This document shows, piece after piece, positions 38,552 to 62,998 of a stretch of 64,000 nt of DNA. The notes beneath the pieces were generated by a model. The model saw nothing but the letters and a program-made list of their open reading frames with translations. It searched no databases and had not been told where the DNA came from. Position 1 is the stretch's first letter. Every line of letters begins with the position of its first letter. Made by a program: the position numbers and the translations under genes. Source of the stretch: Cellvibrio sp. pealriver (GTDB taxonomy: Bacteria; Pseudomonadota; Gammaproteobacteria; Pseudomonadales; Cellvibrionaceae); contig NZ_KQ236688.1 of assembly GCF_001183545.1 (NCBI RefSeq), positions 773,149 through 837,148 of the forward strand. Reading direction: 5' to 3'.

Positions 38552-38563
38552 AATGTTAACAAT
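38552..38563. promoter_or_regulatory. Shared operator-like motif, site 1
   Basis: AATGTTAACAAT, preceded by GTAA, 73 bases upstream of the LEPR-protein start. It is identical to the site at 60537. The 315-base gap 38321-38635 contains no gene and no other recognisable signal. Confidence 0.6.
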
Positions 38564-38635
38564 GCCAGCGTGTGGTCCAGTCCGGCACGCACATGCTTGG
38601 CCCCCGATGTTAGTCCTAAGATAGGTTCGGTATCT

Positions 38636-41600
38636 ATGTCAAGGTCACCGCGTCGTCCTTTAATTGAAGCTCTGGAGCCAAGATTATTGTTCTCTGCCAC
38701 CGCAGATATTGCTGTCTTCGATGATGGCAATTCTGATTGGCTGTCTTTAGCGCAGGCGGCAGAGCAGGTCGATCTGGTTAGTATCTATATGCCAGATACC
38801 CCGCCGATGATGGAAGGCCAGGATTCTGGGCTTCAATCCGTTCCTGATACAGATCCTCAGGCCGATATTGCACCCAACACTCAATCTTCCGCTACTACGC
38901 TGGTATTTGTTGATACAGGGGTCGATGGTTACCAAATTTTGGTTGAAGATATCCGCAACCGTACAGATGCCGACTCCACCGCCATCGTCTATCTCGATAC
39001 CACCCAAGACGGCATTGCTCAAATCAGCAATTATCTTGCTAGTGCTAGCAGCATTTCAGTCATTCATGTGATTTCTCATGGTGTGACCGGTAATCTAATG
39101 CTCGGAAATCAAGTACTTAATGAAAATTATATTGACCAGTACGCCCAGCAATTTGTGGCTTGGAACATGGCGTTGAGCGATGAGGCCGATATTCTCTTGT
39201 ATGGCTGTGATTTGGCGGCAAACCAAAGTGGTATCAACTTATTGCGCCAATTAAGTGATTTGACCGGCGCTGATGTAGCGGCAAGTAATGACCATACCGG
39301 TAATAGTCGTGAAGGTGGGGATTGGGTATTGGAGATTAAGTATGGGCAGATAGATGCCCCCGAACTTTTTTCTGCCAAGTCATATCTTGAGTGGCAGGGG
39401 TTGTTGGCTGGTTCCAACCCTCCTAGTGGCACTGACATATCTATTCCTATCGCTGCCGGAAGTGCCTACACCATCTATGCGGCTTCCTTTGGTTTTCATG
39501 AGACCGTCGATAGCCCTTGGGATGTTATGGCGGGAGTAAAAGTTACTACATTACCTACCAATGGCACCTTAACCCTTAGCGGCATTGCGATTACAGCTGG
39601 TCAAACGGTTACAAAAAGCGATATCGATTTTGGTTTTTTGAAATATACGCCGGATGCAGCCGCTGTAGCGGCTGGCGCTTCGAGCTATACCTTTCAAGTG
39701 CAAGATAATGGTGCGAGCAATACTCTCGACATGACCCCCAATACCATGAGTTTTACAATTTCAGGGGCCGTTAATCAGGCTCCAGTTGGGACAAATAACG
39801 TAATCGATACACAGGAGGATACGCCTAAAGTTTTAACAGCGGCTAATTTTGGTTTTAGTGATCCTGACGGCAATAGTTTTGCTGGTGTAAAAATTACTGC
39901 TATAGGTGGTGGTGGCACATTCTCGGTTACGGGAAGTGGCCCTGTAAGCGTAAATCAATTTGTTACTATTGCTGATATCAATGCGGGAAAGTTAATTTTT
40001 ACCCCTGCAGCCAATGAAAATGCTACGAATTATGCGGTATTGACGTTTCAGGTTAGAGATGACGGCGGTACTGCGGGCGGTGGTGTGGATACCGACCAAA
40101 GTGCTAATAACCTTCAAATTGACGTGAGCTACGTGAATGACAATCCCGTTAATACAGTTCCGGCGGGGCCGATTACTACAGTAGAAGACACGACTGTTGC
40201 TATTTCGGGTGTTAGTATTAGCGATATCGACGACTACAATCTTTGGGATGTGGAAGTAACTTTAAGTGTTAGTCACGGTGTTTTATCTGTTAGTGGTGGC
40301 TCAGCCGCTATTTCAGGTAGTGGTACCGCCACCGTGGTATTAACCGGCACTATGGCGCAAATTAATGCAACACTTGCCGCTACGCTTAACTACACCCCAG
40401 CCAGTAATTTTTTTGGTGCCGATGTTTTCACCATAGTGACCAATGATAAAGGTGCAGGTCGTACCGGAGACTTTGATAAAACAGATACAGACACAGTAGC
40501 CATCAACGTTACTTCAGTTAATGATGCACCTATCGTTGCCAATGCAATTCCCGATCAATCAACCAATGAAGAGTCACTTTACAGTTATACATTTCCAGCC
40601 AATACCTTTAACGATGTTGATGGCAATACGCTGACCTATACCGCTACTTTATCGGATGGAAATCCACTTCCTGCGTGGCTCAATTTCAATGCGGGTACGC
40701 GTACGTTTAGTGGCGTCCCTGATGACGGCGATATTGGCACCATCAGTATTAGAGTTACGGCTAACGATGGCTTTGGTGGAACCGTAAATGAAACCTTTGA
40801 TCTGACTATCGTCAATATTAATGACTTGCCCTTTGTCAATATTCCGATTCCCAATCAGAACGCCACTGAAGACGCGGCGTTCAGTTACACTTTTCCCTCG
40901 AATGCATTTGGCGATGGCGATCTGGGTACAAGTTTTACCTATACCGCAACGTTAGTTGATGGCAGCCCATTGCCAGGGTGGTTGAGTTTTGATTCAGCAA
41001 CGCGCACTTTTTCTGGCACTCCAGTCAATGCGGATGTAGGCACGCTGTCAATTAAGGTGATCGCGACTGACAGCGCGGGAGCGACGGTATCCGACAATTT
41101 TGATATTGTTATTGCCAACTCCAATGACGCACCGACTGTTGCAAATCAAATTCCGAATCAGACGGCGACGGAAAATGCACTGTATAACTACACCTTTCCA
41201 ATCAATACATTTCATGATCAAGATGTCGGTGACACACTAACCTACACAGCGCAGAGGCCCGGTGGAGCACCATTACCTGCATGGCTCACCTTTGATGCGG
41301 CAACTCGCACGTTCAGTGGTACCCCATCCAATGGTGATGTAGGCAATATCACGATTGAAGTGATTGCCAATGACGGCACAACCTCCTTGTCGGATTTTTT
41401 TGATTTGCAAGTCGATAACGTTGGCGCCACTAACGTTAATTATGAATCTTCTGGTCCAGCTACAAATACTCAATCACTCTCATCGGGCGTGCCTTTGTAT
41501 CAGTCGTTTGCACATGACAGTGTGGGCGCAACTTACACAATTGATTCGATTATTTTACAAATCAGAAAAGATCCCTCTGCCAGCGCACAGACTATTACTG

Positions 41601-44600
41601 TCTCATTAATATCATCTACTTATAACGGTACTGTTGTTGCGAGCGATACCAAAACCTCGGCGGGATTAAATACAGTATTGAGTTGGGAGGCATTTGATTT
41701 TTCTGGCGTCGCGCTAAATGACAATCAAATTTATTTTATTAAAGTAGAAACCACCAGCTTTGATGGATTGGTGAGTGTCGGTATTCATAATACCAATGTG
41801 TATCCCAATGGATCTTACCACTCCAGTACGGGCACGCCTGACCCTGATCGCGACTTGGCTTTTCAAGTTTCCAGCGGCATCAATAATAACCCTCAAATTG
41901 CCAATCCAATTCCGAATCAAAGTGCCACAGAAGATGCAGCCTTTAATTTTCAATTTGCCGCCAATACCTTTAGCGATGCTGATGGCGATACGTTGACCTA
42001 CAGCGCAACTATGGCGGATGGCAGTGCATTGCCTGGGTGGCTAAATTTCGACGCGGCAACCCGCACATTTTCGGGTACTCCCGTCAATGCAGATGTGGGC
42101 ACTATCTCGATTAAAGTAACTGCAGATGATGCAAAAGGCGGAACACCGGCAACAGATACCTTTGATTTGGTGATTGCAAACACTAACGATGCACCTACCA
42201 TTGCCAATTCAATTCCCAATCAAAACGCGACTGAAGATGCCGCATTTAATTTTACTTTCGCTGCCAATACGTTTAGTGATGTGGATGTTGGCGATACGCT
42301 CACCTACAGCGCACAACTAGCCGGTGGTGGAGCACTGCCTGCATGGTTAAGTTTTAATGGCGGGACACGCACGTTTAGTGGCACACCTACGAATGATTTT
42401 GTTGGCACAGTTTCAATTGATGTGATTGCCAGCGATGGCAACGGCGGAACAGTAACTGACACCTTTGATATTGTTGTCGCCAACACCAATGACGCCCCCA
42501 CGGTTGCCAATGCCATCCCCAATCAAAATGCGACTGAAGATGCCGCGTTTAATTTTCAATTTGCCGCTAATACATTTGCCGATCCGGATGTTGGCGATAC
42601 GCTCATCTACAGCGCACAACTAGCCGGTGGTGGAGCACTGCCTGCATGGTTAAGTTTTAATGGCGGGACACGCACGTTTAGTGGCACACCTACGAATGAT
42701 TTTGTTGGCACAGTTTCAATTGATGTGATTGCCAGCGATGGCAACGGCGGCACAGTAACTGACACTTTTGATATTGTTGTCGCCAACACCAATGACGCCC
42801 CCACGGTTGCCAATGCGATTCCTAATCAAAATGCGACTGAAAATGTTGCGTTTAATTTTCAGTTTGCCGCTAATACATTTGCAGATTCTGATGTTGGCGA
42901 TACGCTCAGCTACAGCGCGCAACTTGCCGGTGGCGGTGCCTTACCCACTTGGTTAAGTTTTGATGCAGCAACTCGCACGTTTAGCGGTACACCAACGAAT
43001 GCGTTTGTTGGAACTGTATCAATCGATATAATCGCCAATGATGGCAATGGCGGAACGGTGACTGACACATTCGATATTGTCGTCGCCAACACTAACGATG
43101 CCCCCACAGTTGCCAACGCCATTCCCAATCAAAATGCGACTGAAAATGTTGCGTTTAATTTTCAGTTTGCCGCTAATACATTTGCAGATTCTGACGTTGG
43201 CGATACGCTCAGCTACAGCGCACAACTTGCCGGTGGCGGTGCCTTACCCACTTGGTTAAGTTTTGATGCAGCAACGCGCACCTTTAGCGGTACACCAACG
43301 AATGCTTTTGTTGGCACTGTATCAATTGATGTAATCGCCAATGATGGTAATGGCGGTACGGTCACTGACACATTCGATATAGTCGTCGCCAACACTAACG
43401 ATGCGCCTACGGTTGCCAATCCAATCCCCAATCAAAATGCGACGGAAGATGCTGCGTTTAATTTTCAGTTTGCCGCTAATACATTTGCAGATTCGGACGT
43501 TGGCGATACGCTCAGCTACAGCGCGCAACTTGCCGGTGGCGGTGCCTTACCCGCGTGGTTAAGTTTTGATGCAGCAACGCGCACCTTTAGCGGTACACCA
43601 ACGAATGCTTTTGTCGGCACTGTATCAATCGATGTAATCGCCAATGATGGTAATGGCGGAACGGTCACTGACACATTCGATATAGTCGTCGCCAACACCA
43701 ACGATGCGCCTACGGTTGCTTTCCCAATTGCTGACCAGAGTGCAACTGAAAATACCGCTTTCAACTTCACCTTTGGCGCCAATGTATTTGCTGATCAGGA
43801 TGTTGGCGACACACTGACTTACAGCGCGCAACTTGCTGGCGGCGCACCCTTGCCCACTTGGTTGAGTTTTAATTCTGCCACCCGTACTTTTAGCGGTACA
43901 CCTGCGCTTGGTGATGTGGGCAGTATCAATATTGAAGTCACTGCGAATGATGGACAGGGCGGTTCAGTGAGCGATAGTTTTGTTCTCACTGTCACTAGTT
44001 TGCCGGTCAATGCACCGCCGTTTGTACAGTCACCCATTGCCGATCAAGTGGCTGCCGAGAACCAACGCTTTGATTTCAGTTTTCCCGTGTCGACCTTTGT
44101 TGACCCAGAGGGTGATCCGCTACGTTATTCCGCTCAATTGGTAGGCGGTGGGCCTTTGCCAGCCTGGTTAAGTTTTGATGCCGCGACGCGCAGTTTTAGC
44201 GGTACTCCGACGGCGGGCGATATCGGCAGCATCAATGTATTGGTGACGGCGAGTGATGCAAATGGCGGCTCTATTAGCGATAGCTTTGTTATTGTCGTGA
44301 ACAACGTTAATGACGCACCGGTGCTGGTAAATCCTCCGGCCAACCAAACCGCACTGGAAGATCTACCGTTCAGTGTAACTTTCCTCGCTAGCATGTTTAC
44401 TGATGCCGATGTGGGCACCACCTTAGTCTATAGCGCGCAATTAGCTGGCGGCGCGCCCTTGCCAAGCTGGTTGGTATTTGATGCCGCGACGCTGAGTTTT
44501 AGTGGCACACCTAGCCAGGCGGACGTTGGAAACCTAAGTATCCAAATTATCGCCAGTGATGGCATGGCCGCTGCGACAGCTCAATTTGAGTTGACCGTGG

Positions 44601-45931
44601 AAGAGGTCAATGATGTGCCTGAAACCACCGGCAGTATCGTCATCAATAATGTTGAAGACGCGGCTGGTGATCAGGTTGATTTATGGGCCTTGTTTAGCGA
44701 TGAGGAAACTGCCACCCGCAATCTGGTGTTTTCTGTCGTTAGCAATAGCAACCCGGCCTTGGCGAGCAATGCGAGTATTGATCTTGCCACCGGTAAATTG
44801 CAGTTGAACTATGGTGCCAATCAATTTGGCAGCAGCGATGTCGTGGTGCGTGCACAAGATGAGCAGGGCGCTTGGGTTGATGCATTGGTACGCATCCATA
44901 TCGCCTCGGTAAACGATGTGCCTGTGTCGAGCGGCATGGCGGATATTAGCGTCAAGGCTGGCACCGCACCTCAGCAGATGAATTTGCGCACCGTATTTAG
45001 CGATGTGGAAAATGGCACCACGCTCAGTTGGACGCTGATGCAAAACAGCAATAATAGCGCGGTTCCCAGTATTCAAATCGACCCGGCTACTGGCCTTATG
45101 ACGCTCTCGTTTGCCTCTCAAACCGGTGGCGAGTCAACCATTACTCTGCGCGCGAAAGACAGCGATGGCGCTTGGGTAGAAACCTCGTTTAAAGTCACTG
45201 TAGCTGCGTTGGAAAAGCCACCCGTTACTGTGCCGCCGGTAGAGCCGCCAACCCCTCCAACAACGCCGCCTACCACACCTCCAACAACACCGCCTACCAC
45301 AGATGGGCCAAAAACCCCTGATGGTGCAGATACAGATCTGCCCGAGATTCCCGGTGAATTGCCAAATCAGGGTGGCAATAACAGCCTTGAGCCACTGCTT
45401 CCCGATGGCTTGGACGCCCAACAAATTATCGTGGAAACCGGCGATAGCAACCACACTGACGCGGTGATTAACGATAAGTCCAGCCGCGATTATGAACGTG
45501 CTGAGGAGATCAATAGCGATGGCAATGTTCCGCTTACCACCTTAACCGCCTCACCTAATTTGGCAGGCTTGATTGCGCCAGACGCCGGTTTTGCCCCTTG
45601 GGAAGAGGCGGATTTTGATAATGAAGTGCGCCGTTTGCGCGCCCAAATGGATGAGGCCATGGTAGAAGAGCAGGATCGCAGGGCCGTGGTGGCTGGTCTG
45701 ACTTTTTCTGTCACTACCGGTTTGCTGGTGTGGTCTTTGCGCGCGAGCAGTCTATTGTTAACCATGATGTCTATGCTGCCGCTCTGGCGCGGGCTTGATC
45801 CGCTGCCTATCCTGGAAGAAGTAAACAAAAAGAAAAAAGAATTGGAGCAGCAGCGTAAAGATAAAATTAAGGAAGACAGGGAGGCTCACGAAGTGGGTTA
45901 TCTTTTTGATCAGGTTAACAAAAAAGAGTGA
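38636..45931 (+). CDS. Giant LEPR/DUF4347/cadherin-like repeat surface protein
   Basis: A 2431-residue protein. The N-terminus carries a LEPR-XLL type motif (ALEPRLLFSA) instead of a classic signal peptide. A DUF4347 domain at about residues 86-255 shows His148 (ISHG) and Cys191 (YGCD), an arrangement resembling the catalytic dyad of caspase/CHAT-type peptidases. After two cadherin-like repeats come twelve dystroglycan-type cadherin/Ig units of about 100 residues (pattern LPxWLxFxxxTRTFSGTP). They are interrupted once by a non-repeat beta domain at about 41430-41880. The tail is Pro/Thr-rich. A transmembrane-like stretch near residues 2350-2380 is followed by a Lys-rich end. Adhesin or envelope-anchored protein is inferred; start ATG chosen for the LEPR motif. 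Confidence 0.87.
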   Translation: MSRSPRRPLIEALEPRLLFSATADIAVFDDGNSDWLSLAQAAEQVDLVSIYMPDTPPMMEGQDSGLQSVPDTDPQADIAPNTQSSATTLVFVDTGVDGYQILVEDIRNRTDADSTAIVYLDTTQDGIAQISNYLASASSISVIHVISHGVTGNLMLGNQVLNENYIDQYAQQFVAWNMALSDEADILLYGCDLAANQSGINLLRQLSDLTGADVAASNDHTGNSREGGDWVLEIKYGQIDAPELFSAKSYLEWQGLLAGSNPPSGTDISIPIAAGSAYTIYAASFGFHETVDSPWDVMAGVKVTTLPTNGTLTLSGIAITAGQTVTKSDIDFGFLKYTPDAAAVAAGASSYTFQVQDNGASNTLDMTPNTMSFTISGAVNQAPVGTNNVIDTQEDTPKVLTAANFGFSDPDGNSFAGVKITAIGGGGTFSVTGSGPVSVNQFVTIADINAGKLIFTPAANENATNYAVLTFQVRDDGGTAGGGVDTDQSANNLQIDVSYVNDNPVNTVPAGPITTVEDTTVAISGVSISDIDDYNLWDVEVTLSVSHGVLSVSGGSAAISGSGTATVVLTGTMAQINATLAATLNYTPASNFFGADVFTIVTNDKGAGRTGDFDKTDTDTVAINVTSVNDAPIVANAIPDQSTNEESLYSYTFPANTFNDVDGNTLTYTATLSDGNPLPAWLNFNAGTRTFSGVPDDGDIGTISIRVTANDGFGGTVNETFDLTIVNINDLPFVNIPIPNQNATEDAAFSYTFPSNAFGDGDLGTSFTYTATLVDGSPLPGWLSFDSATRTFSGTPVNADVGTLSIKVIATDSAGATVSDNFDIVIANSNDAPTVANQIPNQTATENALYNYTFPINTFHDQDVGDTLTYTAQRPGGAPLPAWLTFDAATRTFSGTPSNGDVGNITIEVIANDGTTSLSDFFDLQVDNVGATNVNYESSGPATNTQSLSSGVPLYQSFAHDSVGATYTIDSIILQIRKDPSASAQTITVSLISSTYNGTVVASDTKTSAGLNTVLSWEAFDFSGVALNDNQIYFIKVETTSFDGLVSVGIHNTNVYPNGSYHSSTGTPDPDRDLAFQVSSGINNNPQIANPIPNQSATEDAAFNFQFAANTFSDADGDTLTYSATMADGSALPGWLNFDAATRTFSGTPVNADVGTISIKVTADDAKGGTPATDTFDLVIANTNDAPTIANSIPNQNATEDAAFNFTFAANTFSDVDVGDTLTYSAQLAGGGALPAWLSFNGGTRTFSGTPTNDFVGTVSIDVIASDGNGGTVTDTFDIVVANTNDAPTVANAIPNQNATEDAAFNFQFAANTFADPDVGDTLIYSAQLAGGGALPAWLSFNGGTRTFSGTPTNDFVGTVSIDVIASDGNGGTVTDTFDIVVANTNDAPTVANAIPNQNATENVAFNFQFAANTFADSDVGDTLSYSAQLAGGGALPTWLSFDAATRTFSGTPTNAFVGTVSIDIIANDGNGGTVTDTFDIVVANTNDAPTVANAIPNQNATENVAFNFQFAANTFADSDVGDTLSYSAQLAGGGALPTWLSFDAATRTFSGTPTNAFVGTVSIDVIANDGNGGTVTDTFDIVVANTNDAPTVANPIPNQNATEDAAFNFQFAANTFADSDVGDTLSYSAQLAGGGALPAWLSFDAATRTFSGTPTNAFVGTVSIDVIANDGNGGTVTDTFDIVVANTNDAPTVAFPIADQSATENTAFNFTFGANVFADQDVGDTLTYSAQLAGGAPLPTWLSFNSATRTFSGTPALGDVGSINIEVTANDGQGGSVSDSFVLTVTSLPVNAPPFVQSPIADQVAAENQRFDFSFPVSTFVDPEGDPLRYSAQLVGGGPLPAWLSFDAATRSFSGTPTAGDIGSINVLVTASDANGGSISDSFVIVVNNVNDAPVLVNPPANQTALEDLPFSVTFLASMFTDADVGTTLVYSAQLAGGAPLPSWLVFDAATLSFSGTPSQADVGNLSIQIIASDGMAAATAQFELTVEEVNDVPETTGSIVINNVEDAAGDQVDLWALFSDEETATRNLVFSVVSNSNPALASNASIDLATGKLQLNYGANQFGSSDVVVRAQDEQGAWVDALVRIHIASVNDVPVSSGMADISVKAGTAPQQMNLRTVFSDVENGTTLSWTLMQNSNNSAVPSIQIDPATGLMTLSFASQTGGESTITLRAKDSDGAWVETSFKVTVAALEKPPVTVPPVEPPTPPTTPPTTPPTTPPTTDGPKTPDGADTDLPEIPGELPNQGGNNSLEPLLPDGLDAQQIIVETGDSNHTDAVINDKSSRDYERAEEINSDGNVPLTTLTASPNLAGLIAPDAGFAPWEEADFDNEVRRLRAQMDEAMVEEQDRRAVVAGLTFSVTTGLLVWSLRASSLLLTMMSMLPLWRGLDPLPILEEVNKKKKELEQQRKDKIKEDREAHEVGYLFDQVNKKE
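42185..43699 (+). repeat. Five tandem 303-bp repeats inside the giant protein gene
   Basis: Units begin at 42185, 42488, 42791, 43094 and 43397, each exactly 303 bp (101 codons), starting at the NDAPT motif. Neighbouring units are nearly identical at the DNA level, while flanking units (before 42185 and after 43700) are diverged. This points to recent duplication or gene conversion. Copy number may vary between strains and assemblies. Confidence 0.93.
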
Positions 45932-46108: not shown

Positions 46109-49100
46109 TTAGTGGACAGAGGGAACAATCTTTATATCATCAATAGTGGCGTCATACATTTTGCCATTACTGGATACAAATGAAGCACGCAGTTGGTAAA
46201 ACTGGCCTGTGGGTAGCTCGGCACTAGGGATTAGATCTTCAAACGAAAAGGTCATGGTGGATTTTCCTGATTCAGTTTTTAAGGCGCTTGCATCTATTAG
46301 GACTCTGTCTTTCACTGGGACCCATTTGGATTGAAAATGGCGCAGCCAAAAGCGAATTCCCCCTTCATCTGACGCAATAACTCTATTACCTGATCCGGCG
46401 TGGTATTCGACGGTTAAAGTAATTTTATCGTTTTGAGTCCATACCTTATCGCGCAATTTTTTCTCATTCGTAAATTTTATAAAGGGTGCGATGGTCGGCG
46501 CCACGTGCAGTTTTATGGTGTCTTTGACAGTAGGTTGTTTTGCGGAAGCTACTTTGATAATTGCAGTGCCGGGTTGTAGTGCGGTGATTGTTCCCGCTGC
46601 ATCTACCCGCACGACTTTTATATTGCTACTGCTCCAGATGAGTTCCGAGTTGTCGGCATGAGCTGGAAATAAAGTAGCAGTGAGTGTAAGGCTTTCACCC
46701 ACCAATAATTTTGTCGGTGATGGTTCGAGTGTTAGCGATTTTGCGGGCACGGCAAACCAAGGCTCAATGGTAATGTTGCTCTGCGCATTTACTCCATTAG
46801 TGGGGCTGGTGGCCGTTATAGTCGCGCTTTGACCAATGTTACCCAGCGCGGTGATTTGGCCTTGCTGATCTACAGCGATAATATTTTCATCGCTTGATGA
46901 CCATTGCAGCCGGGTGTCACCATTGGCTGGTGTTAAGTGGGCGGAGAGATTTAATTTTGTACCTTGGCGTAGATTTGTTTGTGCCGGTTCAAGGCGAAGA
47001 CTTTCTAAATCTGCTTTGTTGGTATCAAATAATTGATTGGCAGGTTTGTTGGTGAAATTTTGAATTTCACCATTGCGCCATCTAATACTGATGCGCTCAA
47101 TTGTTTGTGCATTCCCTAAACCAAAATGCACAATGTTTAGCAGGCTTTGGGAAAAAATTCCTCCCGCTGAACCTACCCGTTTGCGATAAACACCTTGCGC
47201 GGTGGTGATTTTAACTTCAGCGCCTATGGCATCCACATGGGCTTTAGGTGAATAGCCCACTCGTACTAATGCGTAATGTCCGGTTTCATTTTTTTTGTTG
47301 CGATAAAGATACCATTCACCACCTTCACTGCCATTTAATAGGTCTAGGCCGCCATCCAAATCAAAATCAAAGGCATGGCCCATATCACCATTGCCGGGGC
47401 CGCCAACATCATTGGCGCCGTGTTGTGTCAGCGTGTAGAAATGACCTTTGCCATCGTTTAATAGTATGTAATCAGAAATGCGCGCGCCAATATTCCCCCA
47501 GCGATAAAGAAATAAATCCGGATGGCTGTCGTTATTAAAATCACCCGTGGTGACACCCAATGTATTACCGCCGGGTTGAATCTGCCATGCGTGTGATACG
47601 TCAGTGAATTTTCCACCGTCATTGCGCAATAGAATGTCATCCATGTTGCGATTCTCGGGAATAAATTCGGTAGTGGCGCTAGTGACACCAGAGAGGCTAA
47701 ATTTAAAATTCCAAAAAATATCCCCGTTGCGAACTAATGCGGCTTTCCAGCGGCCTTTGCCCAAGTAACCAAAATAAACACCATTTTTCGCAATATTATC
47801 CGGCCAGCCTTGCGCTTCGCTTGGATCTATTTCCAGCTCCTGTCTAGCAGAAAGCATTTTTGATGTTTTTTTGCTACCCAGAAAAAAAGGATAATCTTTT
47901 CCTCTGAATTCACCTTGTGCGAGAAAATAATAATTGTGCAATTTGATTTTTCCTGCAGCGGTGAATTCGAATTTATCCACACCTTTAAAACCGCGTGGTT
48001 TGATCGAAAACTCCTGCGTGATGGGGTCGTGATCGACTGCGGGTGCTTCGCCTTTGCCGTGTTCAACTTCTTTGCCGCGTGCGAGGTAAAGATCCTGATC
48101 CCCATCATTGTCGATATCCAAATCGGCAACTGCCATTATGTTATGTAGGGCGATGACCTCGGCAGGAAATTGCGCGGTAATATCGGTGAAGGTAAAATCG
48201 CCATTGCCCAGCCAAACCGAAAGCGGGCCAAATAAAATCACATCATCAATATTGTCGTGATTTAAATCGGTCACCAAAGAGCGCGAAGGTTCCTGATCTT
48301 GCAAGTCTGCGATTGTGCGTTGCGTAAAAGTTCCATCACCTTTATTTTCGTAAAAAAAATGTTGCGGCTTTTCATGGGTAAGGCTGGATTCGTTAATGAG
48401 CATTAAATCCAAATCGCCATCCAAATCCATATCTGACCATTGTGCGGCGCGGCCACGGCCTCCTTTGTTGATACCTACATCACCTGTAGTGAGTATCATT
48501 GTGCCATTGTCATTGGTATAGAAATTGGCTTTGGAGGGATCTGTGCCATTGCCGCCACCTTGGGTGACAACCAAATCCAGATCGCCATCATTATCGTAAT
48601 CACCAGCAGCGGTGCCGTGCAGATCGTGCATAAACCAGCGCGCCAGATTTTGACTGTGTTTGGTTACAGTACCATCGCCATTATTCCAATAAAGTTTGCT
48701 GCTCTCTTCATTGTGATTATTCACAATGAAATCGTAATCGCCGTCGTTATCTATATCGGCGATTGTGGGGCCCCCGTATTTAATTGAACTGACTTTATCT
48801 ATACCAGCGCTAACGGAGATGTCTTCGAATTGAGGTACATGCTGATCGGGGATATCTATAAATTCAAGACGCTGAATGTTGAGTATTGCGTTGTTGGCTC
48901 TAAGGCTGAGCTTAAGTTTTCCCGGCGCAGGAAGTTTGATGAGCGCGGTTAATTGCTGCTGACCAGAGTGCGGAATATCAATATTGTCGAGCAGTAATTC
49001 ATCGTTGGCGTAAAGACTAAAGTTGGCATAGTTTTTTGGGTTGTCGACGACTAACACCATTTTTTTTATTAAACTGCCTTGAACCTGATATTGAATTGTT

Positions 49101-49234
49101 TTCGGTGTTACAGGGTCGAGATCAATATCGCTGACAAGGGCGGCGGCCTGACTGTTGATTGCGCTTAGGAGCAAAACTGTGCAGAGAAACGATAGATATT
49201 GAAGGCAGGAATAGGGTACTTTTTTTATCATCAT
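46109..49234 (-). CDS. FG-GAP/VCBS repeat protein with UnbV/ASPIC and Big2 domains
   Basis: A 1041-residue exported protein (signal peptide SFLCTVLLLSAINSQAAA). The N-terminal beta domain is followed from residue 140 by repeated calcium-binding-type FG-GAP/VCBS blades (DIDNDGDYDFIV, DYDNDGDLDLVV, DMDLDGDLDLML, DFNNDSHPDLFL). A UnbV/ASPIC module follows near residues 660-720 (GAEVKITTAQG, VHFGLG, ISIRWRNG). Two Big2 immunoglobulin-like domains come next (LRLEPAQTNL and LTLEPSPTKLLVGES), and a C-terminal beta domain ends the protein. It probably folds as a beta-propeller on the surface or in the periplasm, binding glycan or protein. It lies between the giant protein and the IclR gene; an operator-like site lies upstream. 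Confidence 0.85.
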   Translation of the reverse strand: MMIKKVPYSCLQYLSFLCTVLLLSAINSQAAALVSDIDLDPVTPKTIQYQVQGSLIKKMVLVVDNPKNYANFSLYANDELLLDNIDIPHSGQQQLTALIKLPAPGKLKLSLRANNAILNIQRLEFIDIPDQHVPQFEDISVSAGIDKVSSIKYGGPTIADIDNDGDYDFIVNNHNEESSKLYWNNGDGTVTKHSQNLARWFMHDLHGTAAGDYDNDGDLDLVVTQGGGNGTDPSKANFYTNDNGTMILTTGDVGINKGGRGRAAQWSDMDLDGDLDLMLINESSLTHEKPQHFFYENKGDGTFTQRTIADLQDQEPSRSLVTDLNHDNIDDVILFGPLSVWLGNGDFTFTDITAQFPAEVIALHNIMAVADLDIDNDGDQDLYLARGKEVEHGKGEAPAVDHDPITQEFSIKPRGFKGVDKFEFTAAGKIKLHNYYFLAQGEFRGKDYPFFLGSKKTSKMLSARQELEIDPSEAQGWPDNIAKNGVYFGYLGKGRWKAALVRNGDIFWNFKFSLSGVTSATTEFIPENRNMDDILLRNDGGKFTDVSHAWQIQPGGNTLGVTTGDFNNDSHPDLFLYRWGNIGARISDYILLNDGKGHFYTLTQHGANDVGGPGNGDMGHAFDFDLDGGLDLLNGSEGGEWYLYRNKKNETGHYALVRVGYSPKAHVDAIGAEVKITTAQGVYRKRVGSAGGIFSQSLLNIVHFGLGNAQTIERISIRWRNGEIQNFTNKPANQLFDTNKADLESLRLEPAQTNLRQGTKLNLSAHLTPANGDTRLQWSSSDENIIAVDQQGQITALGNIGQSATITATSPTNGVNAQSNITIEPWFAVPAKSLTLEPSPTKLLVGESLTLTATLFPAHADNSELIWSSSNIKVVRVDAAGTITALQPGTAIIKVASAKQPTVKDTIKLHVAPTIAPFIKFTNEKKLRDKVWTQNDKITLTVEYHAGSGNRVIASDEGGIRFWLRHFQSKWVPVKDRVLIDASALKTESGKSTMTFSFEDLIPSAELPTGQFYQLRASFVSSNGKMYDATIDDIKIVPSVH

Positions 49235-49349: not shown

Positions 49350-49361
49350 AATGTTGACAAA
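49350..49361. promoter_or_regulatory. Degenerate operator-like motif, site 2
   Basis: AATGTTGACAAA, differing from the AATGTTAACAAT form in two positions, preceded by AGTT. It lies between the IclR stop and the start of the FG-GAP gene (116 bases upstream of it). Weakest of the six sites. Confidence 0.35.
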
Positions 49362-50387: not shown

Positions 50388-50399
50388 ATTGTTAGCAAT
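50388..50399. promoter_or_regulatory. Shared operator-like motif, site 3
   Basis: ATTGTTAGCAAT, one base from the perfect palindrome ATTGTTAACAAT. On the opposite strand it reads ATTGCTAACAAT, identical to the site at 62987. It lies 37 bases upstream of the PhyH start, within the likely promoter. Confidence 0.6.
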
Positions 50400-53430: not shown

Positions 53431-54168
53431 CTACGCCAGTGGGGTAATGAGGTTGCTTTTCCAGGAAATCAATTTTTCTAAATGTGTGGCTGAGCTAAGT
53501 AATAAATAGCAAAGATTTAAATAGCCTCTTTTATGACACTCTTCAAGTGCTGCACCACTGAGTTGTTGCAGAGCATTTTCGTCTATACCATAAAAACCTT
53601 CCAAGGCTGTTTGTGCGCCGTTGTTGAGTGTTATATCCAAAGTAATAGGCATTAATAGCTCATGTTGATGCAGTTCTTGTAAGGCGATGCGCGATAATTG
53701 TGCGCCGCTCATAAGCTGTGTAATCATTTTTTGGATTCGCAGGAGGTAGGGGGATGGATTTCCATTATGGTCGAATATCGCTTCTGCTTTCTCATGGGCA
53801 ATATTTTCCAGTAGTTCACTGGATTCATTGATGGCTATTTGGCCTATGGCTTTTGGGTTGTTTTCAGGAAATATTACCTGAAATGGATGCCTTAATAGAT
53901 CCATAGGTATAAAGCGTGCGTTCCATTGCTCATGTTGGAGATACAAATTTTCGCCAGTTTCAAAACCCAAAATGGCATTTAGTTGAAATTGTCCCGTAGT
54001 ACTATTTTTATTAATGAATATGGGATATTCGTGTACCAAATTTGAGAGTTCATTAATATTAATGTAAACACGATTAACTTGATGATGGGTGCTATTTAAT
54101 TTGGCGGTGTTTACACCTAGCTTATTGTGCTTAACGGGGTCTAGTAAAACAATGTTTCCAGTTTTCAT
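53431..54168 (-). CDS. SapC family protein, copy 2
   Basis: A 245-residue SapC protein, paralogous to 12583-13314. It shows HEYPIFINKNSTTGQFQLNAILG, ENLYLQHEQWNARFIPMDLLRHPF, the family's core. GAGGAAAA precedes the ATG. It lies 20 bases downstream of the halogenase gene on the same strand, the same order as in the first locus. No signal peptide is visible. Confidence 0.87.
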   Translation of the reverse strand: MKTGNIVLLDPVKHNKLGVNTAKLNSTHHQVNRVYININELSNLVHEYPIFINKNSTTGQFQLNAILGFETGENLYLQHEQWNARFIPMDLLRHPFQVIFPENNPKAIGQIAINESSELLENIAHEKAEAIFDHNGNPSPYLLRIQKMITQLMSGAQLSRIALQELHQHELLMPITLDITLNNGAQTALEGFYGIDENALQQLSGAALEECHKRGYLNLCYLLLSSATHLEKLISWKSNLITPLA

Positions 54169-54188
54169 GAAATTTTCCTCATAAAGCC

Positions 54189-55745
54189 TTAGATGCTGCT
54201 AAGGCCGTATAGATTAATTTTTTGTAGTAGTTTGCGCTGTGTCGGCAAAATATCTAGTAATTGTCTGGTAATCATTTTATTTTTCATCACCAATTCGGCC
54301 GCCATTTTTTGTATTTCCGCGGGGGTACTGAAAACGAGGTTGGTTTTAAATCCCATACCATATAAAACATATTGATAACTTAGTGCATGGAATATTTCAC
54401 CGGTGCGGTCAAAGTCATAGTGTTGAGGCGAAGTGTTTTGCCAGAGTAAAAGGCGCTCACTTAAATCTAGTGGAGTGGTGCTTGGTTGGCGATTGTCTTG
54501 CCAAAAGGGCGAGTCATTTCGTTGGTTTAAAAGATAGTGCAGTTTGAGAAAATCTACTGCTCGCTCCCATCGATAACTAAATCGCTCATTAAACCGTTTG
54601 GCAATAATGGGTATAGCGGAAGTGGTCCTAGGTAGCTGTTCGGCAATCATTAATGCCGAGAGTTCAACCATTACCAATGCTGAGGCTTCCAAGGGTTCCA
54701 AAAAACCGGCAGAAAGGCCTACTGCCACACAATTATGTTTCCAGAATTCTTTGCGATAACCAGAGTTAAAATGAATTTCTCGTATGCTGATGTGCGAGCT
54801 ATCACCGCCAGTTTCATCAATGTAGTTAATTAATTGTTGCGTGGCATGATCGATGGATTGATATTCCTTGGCAAATACATGTCCCACACCGCGACGAGTG
54901 GGTAGGCCTATATCCCAAATCCAGCCAGCTGTCTGCGCACTAGAAAGAGTGGCAGATGCTATAGGGCTATCCTCATAGGGGTAAGCAATTTGTGTGGCGA
55001 GTGCGCAGTTGGTAAATAAAATGTCGCTTATTGAAATTTTTTCAACGCCTAATGTTTCTCCCAATAGCATTGCTGTAAAACCTGTGCAGTCAACAAATAA
55101 ATCACCGGTAATTATGCCTGCACGGTCTGTTATTAATGATTGAATGTGTCCATTTTCTTGCTGCGTAATTTCTGTTACCTCGGCAAGAATATGGTGTACG
55201 TGAAGGTTGGTTAGACAGTGCTTTCGTAAAAATTCTGCGAAGCGACCAGCATTCAAATGATAGCCATAATTAACGATGGCATCATATTCAGCCGTGGTAA
55301 TCGTCTTGGGTGCCAAACTTGCTTCGCATATGGCTTCTTGCGGATGAAATGCGGTTGAGAATGACATAGGGTCATTGGTATTCAACCAATGTTCTGCCAG
55401 ATTAATGCTGGATTGACCTTGCGGGACGGAAAAAGGGTGATAGTAAAAATCTTTTTCTGAACCATCTTTCCAGCGTAAAAATTTTGATCCTTGCTTAAAC
55501 GCAACATCGCACTCACGAATAAAGGCGGTTTCGGATACACCTATTTTTTTTAAGGTTGCGCGCATGGTAGGCCAAGTGCCTTCACCTACACCAATAATAG
55601 GTATTGATGGTGATTCACAGAGCGTAATCTGGAGTTCACCTTGTTTGATTTTGTGTTGATGCTCAGCAGCAATTATTCCTGCCGTTAGCCAGCCAGCAGT
55701 ACCGCCACCGACAATCACGACTGATTGAATGAGGTTGTTTGTCAT
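54189..55745 (-). CDS. Flavin-dependent halogenase-like protein, WIWDIG variant, copy 2
   Basis: A 518-residue flavoprotein closely resembling the copy at 10967. It has GGGTAGWLTAG, GVGEGTWPTMRATLKKIGVSE, AFKQGSKFLRW with the conserved Lys, and GFLEPLEASALV with the conserved Glu. The WxWxIP motif is again altered to WIWDIGL, so this variation defines a subfamily rather than being a single mutation. AAAGGATG precedes the ATG. It is divergent from galT with a 229-base gap that carries the palindromic operator at 55885. Role in polysaccharide use is unknown. Confidence 0.88.
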   Translation of the reverse strand: MTNNLIQSVVIVGGGTAGWLTAGIIAAEHQHKIKQGELQITLCESPSIPIIGVGEGTWPTMRATLKKIGVSETAFIRECDVAFKQGSKFLRWKDGSEKDFYYHPFSVPQGQSSINLAEHWLNTNDPMSFSTAFHPQEAICEASLAPKTITTAEYDAIVNYGYHLNAGRFAEFLRKHCLTNLHVHHILAEVTEITQQENGHIQSLITDRAGIITGDLFVDCTGFTAMLLGETLGVEKISISDILFTNCALATQIAYPYEDSPIASATLSSAQTAGWIWDIGLPTRRGVGHVFAKEYQSIDHATQQLINYIDETGGDSSHISIREIHFNSGYRKEFWKHNCVAVGLSAGFLEPLEASALVMVELSALMIAEQLPRTTSAIPIIAKRFNERFSYRWERAVDFLKLHYLLNQRNDSPFWQDNRQPSTTPLDLSERLLLWQNTSPQHYDFDRTGEIFHALSYQYVLYGMGFKTNLVFSTPAEIQKMAAELVMKNKMITRQLLDILPTQRKLLQKINLYGLSSI

Positions 55746-55884: not shown

Positions 55885-55896
55885 ATTGTTAACAAT
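55885..55896. promoter_or_regulatory. Shared operator-like motif, site 4 (perfect palindrome)
   Basis: ATTGTTAACAAT, a perfect 12-bp palindrome, preceded by GTAA. It lies between the divergent halogenase and galT genes (about 140 and 79 bases from their starts), so one regulator could control both. Confidence 0.65.
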
Positions 55897-55974
55897 AGGC
55901 AATTTCAGTAAATTGTAGCACGTCTACATGATGGCGCCAGTTAACACGATAATCAGCATTAGTTGGATGGGTAT

Positions 55975-57027
55975 ATGAAACCAGTGTTTGTATTGAGTGA
56001 TCATCCACACCGTCGGTTTAATCCGCTGACGGGCGATTGGGTGTTGGTCTCACCTCATAGAGCCAAGCGCCCCTGGCAGGGTCAAATTGAAGAGCTGGCG
56101 GCGGATGATAAACCTGCCTATGACTCGTCTTGCTATTTATGCCCAGGCAATACCCGCATCAATGGTGCGGTGAATGACAATTATATCGGCGCTTATGTGT
56201 TTACCAATGACTTTGCGGCGTTGGAGCCGGAAGATAGGGATTATCAAAGCAGTAGCGATTTGTTTTGTGCCGAGAGTGAGCGCGGTACCAGCCGTGTGAT
56301 TTGTTATTCCGAAAGCCACAATAAAACCCTGCCAGAAATGTCTCAGGCAGCGGTGACAGAGCTTATCGATACCTGGTGCGATTTATATCGCGAATTGGGT
56401 GAAAGTCATTCCTGGGTACAGATTTTTGAAAATAAAGGTGCGATCAACGGCTGCTCTAACCCTCATCCCCATGGACAAGTTTGGGCAACAGGTTCGGTGC
56501 CGACATTGCCGCAGCGGGAAGATGAAAAGCAGTTGGCTTATCAACATAAGCATCAACGCCCAATGCTGCTGGATTATGTGCAGCAAGAGCTGGCCTTTAA
56601 AGAACGTATTGTGGTGCAAAATCAGGATTGGTTGGTGGTAGTTCCTTATTGGGCTAGCTGGCCATTTGAAACGCTGCTGTTACCGCTGCGTCATGTGCCT
56701 GATATGTTGAGTCTTTCTTTATTGGAACGCGAATCACTGGCCGATATTCTGATTCAATTAACAACGCGTTACGACAATCTATTTAAAACCTCCTTTCCTT
56801 ACAGCATGGGGTGGCATTGCGCACCTTTTACTGCAGAAGATCATAGCCATTGGCAGTTGCATGCCCATTTTTATCCGCCGTTGTTGCGCTCGGCATCCAT
56901 CAAAAAATTCATGGTGGGTTACGAAATGCTGGGTGAAGTTCAACGCGATATTACTCCTGAACAAGCGGCGCAGTATCTGCGCGATCAATCCGGTATTCAC
57001 TATAAAAATGCGGCATCTACAGATTAA
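55975..57027 (+). CDS. galT: Galactose-1-phosphate uridylyltransferase GalT
   Basis: A 350-residue Leloir-pathway enzyme that transfers UMP from UDP-glucose to galactose-1-phosphate. The active-site motif is [10 protein letters not shown] near residue 165, with the nucleophilic His. Zinc and structural residues CYLCPGN and the second half with [10 protein letters not shown] also fit. ATG 55975 is preferred over TTG 55963; GGATGGG lies just upstream. galK follows 13 bases downstream, and the operator-like palindrome at 55885 is upstream. Confidence 0.95.
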
Positions 57028-57040
57028 AAGGTAATTGGTT

Positions 57041-58198
57041 ATGAGTATGTTGGAAAATGTTACCCAGTGTTTTACCGAGCATTTTGATCAATTGCCGGAT
57101 TTTGTTTCCAAAGCGCCGGGGCGGGTTAATTTGATTGGCGAGCACACAGACTATAACGATGGTTTTGTATTGCCAGCAGCGATTGATTTTTTCACGCTGG
57201 TTGCCACCTCTGCGCGACAAGATAACTTAATTAAAGTGATCGCGCTGGATTACGCCGGGCAGAGCGATGAGTTTGCACTGAACTCTCTCTATGAAGCTCA
57301 TCCCATCCAGATGTGGAGTAATTATGTCCGTGCCGTTGTGCGCACATTGGTAGATCGTGGTTATCAGCTCAAGGGCTGTAATTTGGTAGTGTCAGGTAAT
57401 GTCCCTCAAGGCGCTGGTTTAAGTTCTTCGGCATCTTTGGAGGTTGCCTTAGCGCAGGCGCTTTTAACCGTTGCTGGCATTCAAATTCCGGCCACCGAAT
57501 TGGCTTTAATTGGCCAGGCAGCGGAAAACAATTATGTCGGCTGTGCCTGCGGCATTATGGATCAACTGGTATCGGCTGGCGGTCAACAAGGTCATGCACT
57601 ATTGATCGATTGTCGCAGCTTGGAGACTACACCAATCCTTATGCCGTCTGAGTTGTCGATTGTTATTATCAATTCGGGTGTAAAAAGAGGCTTGGTCGAC
57701 AGCGAATATAATTTGCGTCGCGAGCAGTGTGCAGAAGCTGCGAAATTTTTTAAACAATCGGTTTTGCGCGATGTAACCAAAGAACAATTTTTTGCTGCTG
57801 CCGATCAATTACCAGAGCTGGTGCGCAAGCGCGCGCAACATGTGATTGAAGAGAATGAGCGAACCTTGAAAGCAGCTGAGGCATTGGCAACCAATAATGC
57901 CGCACTGTTAAGTCAGTTGATGGCGGAGAGCCATGGGTCCATGCGCGATTTGTTTGAGATCACCACCCCTGAAATTGATTATCTGGTGGCAGCGCTGGAT
58001 AAAGAATTGGGCAGTGATGGCGGTGTGCGTATGACCGGCGGCGGTTTTGGCGGTTGCATCGTCGCTTTAGTGCCACAACAAAAACTGTCCATAGTTGAGC
58101 CCATTCTGGCTGATTACCAATTAAAAACGGGTTTGATCGCCACGCCTTTTATCTGTACACCAGAGCAGGGCGCTAGTTTAGTAGCCTTGGAAAGTTAA
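57041..58198 (+). CDS. galK: Galactokinase GalK
   Basis: A 385-residue GHMP kinase that phosphorylates galactose. Signature motifs are APGRVNLIGEHTDYNDGFVLP near residue 25, PQGAGLSSSASLEVA (the GHMP ATP-binding motif) and MTGGGFGGCIVAL (motif 3). The frame could begin at TTG 57035; ATG 57041 has AAGG 10 bases upstream. Length matches E. coli GalK (382). It lies between galT and dgoK in one unit. Confidence 0.95.
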   Translation: MSMLENVTQCFTEHFDQLPDFVSKAPGRVNLIGEHTDYNDGFVLPAAIDFFTLVATSARQDNLIKVIALDYAGQSDEFALNSLYEAHPIQMWSNYVRAVVRTLVDRGYQLKGCNLVVSGNVPQGAGLSSSASLEVALAQALLTVAGIQIPATELALIGQAAENNYVGCACGIMDQLVSAGGQQGHALLIDCRSLETTPILMPSELSIVIINSGVKRGLVDSEYNLRREQCAEAAKFFKQSVLRDVTKEQFFAAADQLPELVRKRAQHVIEENERTLKAAEALATNNAALLSQLMAESHGSMRDLFEITTPEIDYLVAALDKELGSDGGVRMTGGGFGGCIVALVPQQKLSIVEPILADYQLKTGLIATPFICTPEQGASLVALES

Positions 58199-58239
58199 TA
58201 TTCTCCTCGTGACTCTTTGTACCTGTTGAGGGCTATATC

Positions 58240-59169
58240 TTGGGTGAGATGATTGCCATTGATTGGGGCGGTACCAATTTTCGGCTACAGGTAGTGAATG
58301 CTGTAGGCGATATTGTTTATAACATTACCCGGCCAATTGGCATTAACCAATCATCGCGCGCCGAGCTTGAGCAATGTTTAATTGATGCGACTACACAATT
58401 GCCTGCGCAGTATGCGAGTGCACCGATTGTGATGAGCGGTGCAGTGGGTTCGAATATTGGATTGTATGAAACGCCTTATATTGAATGTCCGGTGAATCCT
58501 TATCAATTGGTCGAGCATTTAATTAATATTCAAGTGAGCGACATTAATGCTTTTATCGTGCCAGGAATTAAAACTCATGTGCGCGAAGGTTTGCCTGACG
58601 TCATGCGCGGTGAAGAAACCCAAATTCTGGGTTGGATGCAGCAGGCAAGTAGAGCGGAATTAAAAGAGGCACTCCTGTGTTTGCCCGGAACCCACTCTAA
58701 ATGGGTGCTAGTTAAACGAGGAGAGATTGTTGATTTTTACACCGCATTCTCCGGTGAGCTTTTTGGCAGTTTATGTGCACAGAGTTTGTTGGTGAGCGGC
58801 ACACAAATTCATGATGAAACCGCGTTTCTTCAAGGCGTTAAGGTCAATACGAGAGATACTTTTTTATTGAATTTAATGTTCAGCGCCCGCTCCAGAGTGT
58901 TAGCAGGGCTACATGAAAAAAATGTGAGTGCTGCGTACCTATCGGGTGTATTGATAGGTGCCGAAGTAAAAGCAGCAATGAAACTGTACGGAAAGAAAAA
59001 AAATATACATCTGATTGGTGCAGATCTTTTAGTGAATAGTTACGCCACAGCGATACAAATTTACCAAGGGAAATCGATTAAACATCAAGGAGCATTGATG
59101 GCAGCAAAAGGGGCAAGGTTATTGGCTAATCGATTTTTAGTGAATCACTCGCTGGAGCGCCGCGCCTGA
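58240..59169 (+). CDS. dgoK: 2-dehydro-3-deoxygalactonokinase (DgoK)
   Basis: A 309-residue sugar-acid kinase of the DgoK family (COG3734 type), which phosphorylates 2-keto-3-deoxygalactonate. The N-terminal ATP-binding element is IAIDWGGTNFRLQVV; MSGAVGSNIGLYETPYIECP and GTHSKWVLVKRGEIVDFYT are further family segments. The TTG start at 58240 has GAGGG 7 bases upstream, while ATG 58249 lacks a well-placed site, so TTG is favoured. Beside GH117 it fits the 3,6-anhydro-L-galactose route, which leads through 2-keto-3-deoxygalactonate. The aldolase and the upstream oxidative steps are not in the window. Confidence 0.88.
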   Translation: MGEMIAIDWGGTNFRLQVVNAVGDIVYNITRPIGINQSSRAELEQCLIDATTQLPAQYASAPIVMSGAVGSNIGLYETPYIECPVNPYQLVEHLINIQVSDINAFIVPGIKTHVREGLPDVMRGEETQILGWMQQASRAELKEALLCLPGTHSKWVLVKRGEIVDFYTAFSGELFGSLCAQSLLVSGTQIHDETAFLQGVKVNTRDTFLLNLMFSARSRVLAGLHEKNVSAAYLSGVLIGAEVKAAMKLYGKKKNIHLIGADLLVNSYATAIQIYQGKSIKHQGALMAAKGARLLANRFLVNHSLERRA

Positions 59170-59258
59170 CAAAAATCGTATCTACTAAACCGTATACCGA
59201 ATAAACGCTGTTTCTGATAAAAATAGTTCAAGTCATCATGTTAAAAAGTGAGTGAGAT

Positions 59259-60353
59259 ATGGGTGATCTTCCAGAAAAAAAATTAAGCAAAGCCAGTCTT
59301 CGTGCAATTGAGCGCGGTTACGACCAAAAAAATGCAGACTGGGTATTTGAATTTGATGTGAAGCCTTTGGGCGGTGATTTTGCCTATCAAGAAGGCGTGA
59401 TTCGCCGCGATCCTTCAGCGGTTATCAGTGTCGATGGTGTTTATCATGTTTGGTACACCAAAGGTGAAGGTGAAACTATTGGTTTTGGTAGCGATAATCC
59501 TGAGGACAAAGTGTTTCCCTGGGATAAAACTGAAGTGTGGCATGCAACCTCCAGTGATGGTTGGGATTGGAAAGAGCAGGGGCCTGCAATCGTAGCCGGT
59601 ACACCTGGTTCCTATGATGATCGCGCGGTATTTACGCCTGAGGTTCTTGCCCATGAAGGTCGCTATTATTTGGTTTATCAAACTGTCCAAGCGCCTTATT
59701 TAAATCGCACCAAAGAATGCATTGCACTCGCCAGTGCAGAATCGCCTTATGGCCCTTGGGTTAAAAGTCCAGCTCCCATTTTAACGCCAGCCGATAATGG
59801 TGTCTGGGATGGTGATGAAGACAACCGCTTTCATTGCAAAATTCGCGGCGATTTTGATAGCCATAAAGTGCATGACCCATGTTTGATGTTTTATCAAAAT
59901 AAATTTTATCTTTATTACAAAGGTGAAATTATGGGGGAGCGTATGAACTTTGGTGGACGTGAAATAAAACACGGGGTTGCCATTGCCGATAAAATTGAAG
60001 GGCCTTATGTGAAATCGGAATTTAATCCGATCACCAACAGTGGGCATGAGGTTGTTGTGTGGCATGTGAATGGTGGAATTGCCAGTTTGTTGACTACCGA
60101 TGGGCCAGAAAAAAATACCTGCCAATGGTCACCGGATGGTATTAATTTTGACATCATGGCGCATATTAAAGGTGCACCAGAGGCGTTGGGTTTATATCGC
60201 GACCCCGCTGCGGACACTCAAGACCCTATGGCTGGATTGGCGTGGGGGCTGTGCCACAAGTATGATTCTTCGTGGAACTGGAATTATATTTGCCGTTTTA
60301 AAACCCGTCGGCAGATATTGGATCCTGGCACCTTTCAGAATGTAGCATCCTGA
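59259..60353 (+). CDS. GH117 family alpha-1,3-neoagarooligosaccharide hydrolase
   Basis: A 364-residue cytoplasmic glycoside hydrolase of family 117 type, which cleaves neoagarobiose or longer oligosaccharides to galactose and 3,6-anhydro-L-galactose. The characteristic N-terminal helical segment [21 protein letters not shown] is followed by [24 protein letters not shown], matching the known dimerisation region and start of the propeller. [39 protein letters not shown] and [12 protein letters not shown] are expected five-bladed propeller segments. No signal peptide is present, consistent with an intracellular step. It completes the galT-galK-dgoK group. A terminator follows at 60377-60411. 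Confidence 0.92.
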
Positions 60354-60411: not shown

Positions 60412-60536
60412 TTTCTGCGCTTATTCCTGCCGTCCCTTTATCTTCCTGTAAATTCCCGTAAACGTTCTTAATTTGCCGCAAAAACTTCTTGCTTATGGCA
60501 TTGCAATCTCCCTCTATTGGCGCTAGCATTGTGTTA

Positions 60537-60548
60537 AATGTTAACAAT
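60537..60548. promoter_or_regulatory. Shared operator-like motif, site 5
   Basis: AATGTTAACAAT, preceded by GTTA, 14 bases before the start of the second solute-binding-like gene. The same 12-mer occurs at 38552. It overlaps the in-frame ATG at 60538, supporting the start at 60562 instead. Confidence 0.6.
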
Positions 60549-60561
60549 TAACGGGTGGTGT

Positions 60562-61431: not shown

Positions 61432-61446
61432 TTTTGGAGGCTATTC

Positions 61447-61782: not shown

Positions 61783-61815
61783 GGTTTATATGAACTCCGT
61801 ATTTGGGAAATGGTA

Positions 61816-62850: not shown

Positions 62851-62881
62851 GTTTTCTCTGTGTTCGCTGTTGTGTTATTTG

Positions 62882-62905
62882 GGAGGCCTGCGCCTCCTTT
62901 TTTTT
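62882..62905 (+). terminator. Rho-independent terminator after galE
   Basis: A stem GGAGGC / GCCTCC with a CTGC loop, followed by eight T. Confidence 0.88.
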
Positions 62906-62986
62906 GTCTGTTACTTTGTCATTATCGCTTTAATGGTGCGTTCTCCATGGTTACCTTTTTTCACATTCTTTTAGCTATAAATGTAA

Positions 62987-62998
62987 ATTGCTAACAAT
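62987..62998. promoter_or_regulatory. Shared operator-like motif, site 6
   Basis: ATTGCTAACAAT, preceded by GTAA, 142 bases upstream of the TBDR start. It matches the reverse complement of the site at 50388. Confidence 0.6.

Follow-up and report, generated by a model that had tools for sequence, protein, structure and literature searches.

We analysed a 64,000-nucleotide stretch of the genome of Cellvibrio sp. pealriver (G000:C2:773149-837148, hereafter the window; genome size, 4.43 Mb), in which short palindromes recur between genes at the edge of a predicted agar/porphyran utilisation locus. A preliminary description of this DNA had proposed that the palindromes are a shared operator and that an IclR-family protein encoded among them is the regulator. 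A motif search of the window found the palindromes at the positions described. Three of them (ATTGTTAGCAAT at 50388, ATTGTTAACAAT at 55885, and ATTGCTAACAAT at 62987) match ATTGYTARCAAT without mismatch, the two copies of AATGTTAACAAT at 38552 and 60537 (the second form in that description) differ from it by one mismatch, and the site at 49350, AATGTTGACAAA, is weaker. The candidate operators and the genes around them are as follows.

38552 to 38563, plus strand: operator copy before the giant protein on the next line, with an outer box GTGTAA on its left
38570 to 45931, plus strand: giant protein with DUF4347, He_PIG, Big_9 and cadherin-like domains; predicted target
46109 to 49234, minus strand: FG-GAP/UnbV_ASPIC/Big_2 protein; predicted target
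49350 to 49361, plus strand: weaker copy of the operator (AATGTTGACAAA), lying 116 bp upstream of the minus-strand FG-GAP/UnbV protein; conserved in the related genomes G016, G013, and G019
49385 to 50155, minus strand: IclR-family regulator, the candidate of the preliminary description; judged a neighbour or target, not the binder
50388 to 50399, plus strand: operator copy between the IclR gene (minus) and the PhyH gene (plus), lying 36 bp upstream of PhyH, with no outer box visible to the left
50436 to 51200, plus strand: PhyH-family oxygenase; predicted target
53431 to 55745, minus strand: tryptophan-halogenase-like and SapC genes; predicted targets
55885 to 55896, plus strand: operator copy in the divergent promoter region of galT (plus) and the tryptophan-halogenase-like gene (minus)
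55963 to 60353, plus strand: galT, galK, 2-keto-3-deoxygalactonokinase and GH43/GH32-type hydrolase; predicted targets, galactose branch
60537 to 60548, plus strand: operator copy directly before a solute-binding-like protein with a probable start at 60562
62987 to 62998, plus strand: operator copy before a TonB-dependent receptor that extends past the window end

All of these sites are intergenic and lie before the genes that had been named for them, provided that the open reading frame (ORF) listed at 60538 begins at ATG 60562, which is probably its true start. GTAA or GTTA stands ahead of four of the five stronger sites, the exception being 50388, in keeping with the remark that most sites are so preceded.

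Counts in the window alone do not clearly exceed chance: 25 places with mismatches versus 17.4 in shuffles, with 6 of 100 shuffles reaching 25, and 7 places for the 10-mer core at one mismatch versus 4.25, with 15 of 100 reaching 7. Genome-wide, we found 29 exact WWTGYTARCAWW sites, against 12 for the reversed-pattern control. Ten of the 29 fall inside a 97-kb agar/porphyran block (811.7-908.4 kb), where 0.63 would be expected (binomial P = 3.4e-10), and 11 of the 17 places within two mismatches of GTWAAWTGTTAACAAT lie there as well (P = 5.9e-15). Because both patterns were derived from the window's own sites, the counts were repeated with the window omitted; the remaining block still held 5 of 24 WWTGYTARCAWW sites (P = 3.6e-5) and 6 of 12 GTWAAWTGTTAACAAT places at up to two mismatches (P = 1.5e-8). 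The preliminary description had expected the hits of a genome scan to lie mainly before agar/galactan genes, and they do concentrate in this block with or without the window. At three mismatches, the 16-mer GTWAAWTGTTAACAAT was not above control in this genome (102/85 versus 120/114). Outside the block, 16 distinct places were inspected, 9 of them inside ORFs.

From 18 own-genome rows we kept 14 block sites, dropping four one-mismatch rows (860241, 910963, 911799, and 916830). The 14 precede transcription units of the block that encode agarases, porphyranases, TonB receptors, galT-galK, and an anhydro-L-galactose (AHG) operon. In three other Cellvibrio-group genomes, 14/14 (G016), 13/14 (G013), and 12/14 (G019) of them recur, with correspondence assigned manually by order and one G019 site lying beyond the fetched stretch. 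The 12-mer was more conserved than its flanks (94% versus 77% invariant columns; Wilcoxon P = 0.0015) across 49 sites, which were partly hand-picked and to which the other-genera regions G135 and G057 contributed none. On the basis of the genome-wide clustering, which persists with the window omitted, and of the recurrence in three Cellvibrio-group genomes, the prediction of a shared agar/galactan regulon is well supported.

What do the candidate operators precede? We ran 40 proteins of the 836-917 kb stretch against Pfam. The block encodes agarases with Agarase_CBM domains, porphyranase-type enzymes, a GH16 enzyme, CBM6 proteins, and sulfatases, together with a TonB receptor with halogenase/SapC partners, sugar transporters, and PfkB kinases. 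One operon comprises an enolase-superfamily cycloisomerase-like protein, a Zn dehydrogenase, a KduD-like short-chain dehydrogenase, an aldehyde dehydrogenase, and, last, a GntR/FCD regulator (GntR1). We predict from sequence that these five genes are the AHG pathway operon. The assignment to it of the steps beyond AHG dehydrogenase and anhydrogalactonate cycloisomerase is our assumption. For the cycloisomerase-like protein, NCBIfam gave no exact equivalog, the best model being L-talarate/galactarate dehydratase, below cut-off. The available text of a study of Zobellia describes both AHG dehydrogenase and anhydrogalactonate cycloisomerase (PMC5698469). Agarases, AHG pathway, transport, and galactose genes lie together by domain annotation, all with predicted activities; with the AHG operon in the block and galT-galK in the window, we therefore regard the region as an agar/porphyran utilisation locus.

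The operator core reads ATTGT-NN-ACAAT, and its central two bases differ among genera (TA, AT, AA, CG, and TG). Taking all 36 exact sites of 11 regions, which repeats the box test without hand-picking, we found that 29 have, on one or both sides, an outer GT at a distance of exactly 7 bp from the central GT. The same box accompanied 1 of 12 sites outside (8 drawn from the 19 exact outside sites, the other 11 being left out, and 4 that match the 10-mer core only; Fisher P = 1.4e-5). An additional GT at 14 bp was present in 13/36 sites, and any other distance between 4 and 23 bp in at most 7/36. We then compared the operators with predicted promoters upstream of 14 AHG operons. In six from other genera (G104, G118, G140, G135, G042, and G039), promoter prediction gave TTGA(C/T)N-16/17-TACAAT as the best candidate, with the palindrome lying in the spacer between its two elements and the outer box itself forming the -10. 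Six further upstream sequences (four near-identical Cellvibrio sequences, G057, and G023) show overlap between the operator and the best -10 or -35; the stretches from G125 and G086 did not reach the operator site. Because the palindrome fills the -35/-10 spacer in six of these promoters, the layout suggests the site of a repressor.

GntR1 (G000:C2:889019-889627) lies about 52 kb to the right of the window, and an operator at 884414 precedes the first gene of its own operon. It combines a GntR winged helix-turn-helix with an FCD domain (PF00392, 1.2e-16; PF07729, 2.1e-17), the architecture of the FadR subfamily, and its best solved relative by sequence is 7xp0 (1.6e-16). Sites of this subfamily, according to the available text of PMC4494728, carry TKGT/ACMA boxes, with a GT-AC spacing of 2 nt in some groups and, likewise only in some, an extra half-box 7 to 12 nt from the centre. 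The sites described here contain TTGT-NN-ACAA, in agreement with the A/T-rich palindrome of TKGT/ACMA boxes and a GT-AC spacing of 2 or 3 nt; since their outer GT is 7 bp outside the central GT, the extra half-box lies about 10 nt from the centre (29/36 sites).

Sites were assigned to GntR1 by co-occurrence and position. Orthologues of GntR1 are present in 29 of 144 genomes of the family (at least 258 bits; next match, 74); of 21 genomes sampled from the genus, 4 (G000, G013, G016, and G019) carry both the IclR and the GntR1 orthologue. No match at E 1e-40 was found outside this genome in a class-wide sample of 369 genomes, and a scan of genome contigs, whose hits were not used further, turned up two close relatives (91% and 74%) along with 47 distant ones. 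A first operator pattern from the genus itself, GTRTAWAWTGTTAACAAW at up to two mismatches, was compared in six genera only. In genus g3 it occurred 4 to 11 times in the 11 genomes with GntR1 and 0 to 6 times in the 37 without (mean, 1.03; control, 0.92; P = 3.2e-7), and it separated the g1 carriers too (P = 0.002). A second, three-box pattern, WTTGTNNACAAWNNACAAW at up to one mismatch, was counted in all 144 genomes. It averaged 12.8 copies in the 29 GntR1 genomes (reversed control, 3.1) versus 3.94 in the 115 others (control, 3.40), a difference with a Mann-Whitney U P value of 1.5e-14 that was reached in 0 of 5,000 genus-stratified permutations. The ranges with and without GntR1 did not meet in g3 (9-16 versus 0-6) or g4 (16-19 versus 2-3). 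In the pealriver genome, 6 of 11 WTTGTNNACAAWNNACAAW places lie in the block; at two mismatches the pattern is too loose (64 and 70 versus 52 and 45 for the control). The genome counts behind both co-occurrence tests were transcribed by hand.

The block's regulators are IclR, two AraC proteins, an ECF sigma/FecR pair, GntR1, and a second GntR protein (GntR2). GntR1 and the four operon enzymes occurred together in 10/10 regions fetched from other genera, and GntR1 alone among these regulators was present in all ten. Four features single out GntR1: the family to which it belongs, its position within the AHG operon, the presence of an operator ahead of that operon, and the class of the operator. 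Conservation of the helix-turn-helix (HTH) did not discriminate between candidates, the HTH being conserved in both (GntR1, 35/65 HTH positions invariant and 34/130 outside; IclR, 22/63 and 28/184), and the GntR1 stretch FGVSRGP(V/I)R(D/E)V is identical in 29/29. Taken together, these data lead us to propose, with a probability of roughly 0.83, that GntR1, a regulator of the FadR subfamily, is the protein for which the palindromes serve as operators and that it would jointly switch the agar/porphyran digestion genes.

Several results weigh against this proposal. The outer box is absent from 3 of the 10 exact sites of the pealriver block. In a promoter scan of this genome, for which start codons were chosen manually, few promoters beat shuffles, and an overlap between the operator and the best predicted promoter was seen for only 9 of 18 gene directions. 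GTRTAWAWTGTTAACAAW failed to separate g4, g34, g36, and g40 taken singly (P = 0.11 to 0.24). The WTTGTNNACAAWNNACAAW ranges overlap in g1 (7-14 with GntR1, 0-13 without), and the g32 carrier, with 7 copies, is not above the non-carriers (3, 8, and 12). Because WTTGTNNACAAWNNACAAW was written after reading ten GntR1-bearing regions, its test is supporting rather than independent. Finally, co-occurrence cannot tell GntR1 from other genes travelling with the AHG operon, and IclR accompanies GntR1 in 24/29 genomes.

Instead of operators, could the AT-rich palindromes be chance matches or fragments of promoters (-35 TTGTTA, -10 TACAAT)? The weak window counts would fit such a reading, as would the coincidence of the third box with the -10 in six AHG-operon promoters, and the earlier argument from rarity to a regulon is not clearly borne out by the window counts, although it holds genome-wide with 10 of 29 sites in the block. 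The clustering without the window's sites, the conservation beyond the flanks, the outer box at a fixed 7 bp, and the co-occurrence with GntR1 make this explanation very unlikely. GntR2 (892357-893025), an FCD-type GntR protein adjoining a galactonate-dehydratase-like gene, belongs to the same regulator family as GntR1 and is preceded by a site at 892235, so it might bind the sites alone or with GntR1. Its orthologues are found in only 9/144 genomes (at least 216 bits; next, 74), G019 lacks it yet keeps the sites, and G071, the sole genome with GntR2 and without GntR1, shows no operator excess (8 versus 9 for the control). The 21 genomes with GntR1 and without GntR2 average 12.3 copies versus 3.1 for the control. 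On this distribution and the G019 sites, GntR2 was set aside as a very unlikely binder. The AraC proteins and the ECF sigma/FecR pair were rejected since they stand beside few AHG operons (AraC1, 3/10; AraC2, 0/10; ECF sigma, 1/10 fetched regions).

The IclR protein, with its HTH_IclR and IclR_C domains (PF09339, 1.5e-9; PF01614, 4.7e-17), was the binder proposed in the preliminary description. Two sites flank its gene, and just 5 of the 29 genomes with GntR1 lack it; its orthologues occur in 24/144 genomes (at least 196 bits; next, 120), all within those 29. Since no genome has IclR without GntR1, the two cannot be separated in the reverse direction. However, all five genomes with GntR1 and without IclR keep an operator excess over the control (G104, 13/0; G101, 11/2; G044, 12/1; G125, 11/5; G042, 29/12). 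By eye, moreover, the sites do not fit the IclR-family consensuses quoted in the available text of PMC8222616 (GKTYCRYW3-4RYGRAMC and TGRAACAN1-2TGTTYCA). In two IclR-less regions, ORFs of 140 to 470 amino acids were listed (17 and 18) and 10 from each were run against Pfam; the 20 included one cold-shock domain and one HTH_3 as DNA-binding domains, overlapping ORFs having been dropped, which hid GntR1. After the distribution tests we set IclR aside as an unlikely regulator of these sites. With ATTGT-NN-ACAAT upstream of IclR in 7/21 orthologous loci, its gene may rather be a target of the operator. A separate AT palindrome, TTTATATATAAA, recurs upstream of IclR in 8/21 orthologous loci and may be the protein's own operator. 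Of the original interpretation, the shared operator and the agar/galactan regulon are supported; IclR as its regulator is not, GntR1 being the likelier one.

How might GntR1 act? What the sequences show is the sites, their clustering and conservation, the geometry of their boxes, the co-occurrence with GntR1, and an operator that overlaps the promoter at the AHG operon; we infer binding, repression, effector, and cooperativity. A GntR1 dimer would sit on the ATTGT-NN-ACAAT palindrome, a further subunit or dimer would probably use the GT box 7 bp outside, and the bound protein would cover and block the core promoter. Given the regulator family, for which carboxylic-acid effectors are expected, and the operon content, an early acid of AHG breakdown (3,6-anhydrogalactonate or 2-keto-3-deoxygalactonate) perhaps releases GntR1, upon which depolymerases, receptors, transporters, the AHG pathway, and galactose genes would be turned on together. 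A broader proposal, which we advance tentatively and give somewhat less than an even chance, is that a single, hitherto undescribed GntR/FCD repressor acts as master switch for the digestion of red-algal galactans across as many as eleven genera within one family. This protein would sense an AHG-pathway acid and would also control depolymerases, TonB receptors, and the genes of the galactose branch. More than one dimer, bound cooperatively, would occupy a phased row of ATTGT boxes 7 bp apart, with the outer box doubling as the -10 of the AHG promoter. With a predicted regulator, a precise operator, and a list of targets at hand, the regulation can be tested directly in agar degraders that grow in culture. 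Used as a tag, the operator also adds unexpected genes to the agar regulon, such as those of the PhyH, halogenase/SapC, and giant surface-type proteins of the window.

Besides the halogenase-like/SapC pair at 53431-55745 of the window, a second pair lies at L090:1054-3402, and an operator adjoins each. An ECF sigma-factor gene and a FecR-type protein with a Laminin_G_3 domain (L088:1611-3751; 858759-860899 of G000:C2), a similar pair of which is present in G023 (47% and 51%), may add another layer of control to the locus, one that senses polymers. A tyrosine integrase with an arm-binding domain, at 37016-38320 of the window, borders the agar block directly on its left. Around the same block in G013, G016, and G019, the stretches retrieved contained neither this integrase nor the adjoining MutS gene, and the window has no tRNA gene. 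The position of the agar block may differ between genomes.

Our search of open-licence papers turned up neither a regulator nor an operator described for the AHG/agar regulon of these bacteria; RegPrecise, which may list a regulon for GntR1, was outside this search. In Cellvibrio sp. KY-GH-1, of the same genus as the related genome G019, a 77-kb cluster of agarase genes (PMC10163192) is an agar locus of the same type; in the main text of that paper, the word stem regulat- occurs 0 times. The carrageenan regulon of Zobellia galactanivorans (PMC5698469) is likewise a red-algal galactan regulon, described with the AHG dehydrogenase and cycloisomerase of Vibrio named. It uses an AraC-type activator (cgrA), and in the available text a GntR-like factor appears only in a figure legend on related loci. 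The FadR-subfamily GntR regulators with a 2-nt GT-AC spacing (GntR, UxuR, PrpR, and others; PMC4494728, available text) share with our system the winged helix-turn-helix plus FCD, TTGT-NN-ACAA, and an extra half-box about 10 nt from the centre. The present case differs in its AHG operon and agar/porphyran locus and in an outer box that is found in most sites (29/36) at one fixed distance. Escherichia coli NanR (PMC8012715) is also an FCD-type GntR repressor of a sugar-acid pathway, with several dimers on a row of boxes. NanR recognises (GGTATA)3 direct repeats, whereas here the core is palindromic, the outer boxes are 7 bp away, and more than one dimer would be bound. Among known systems, NanR offers the nearest precedent for a row of boxes occupied by several GntR dimers.

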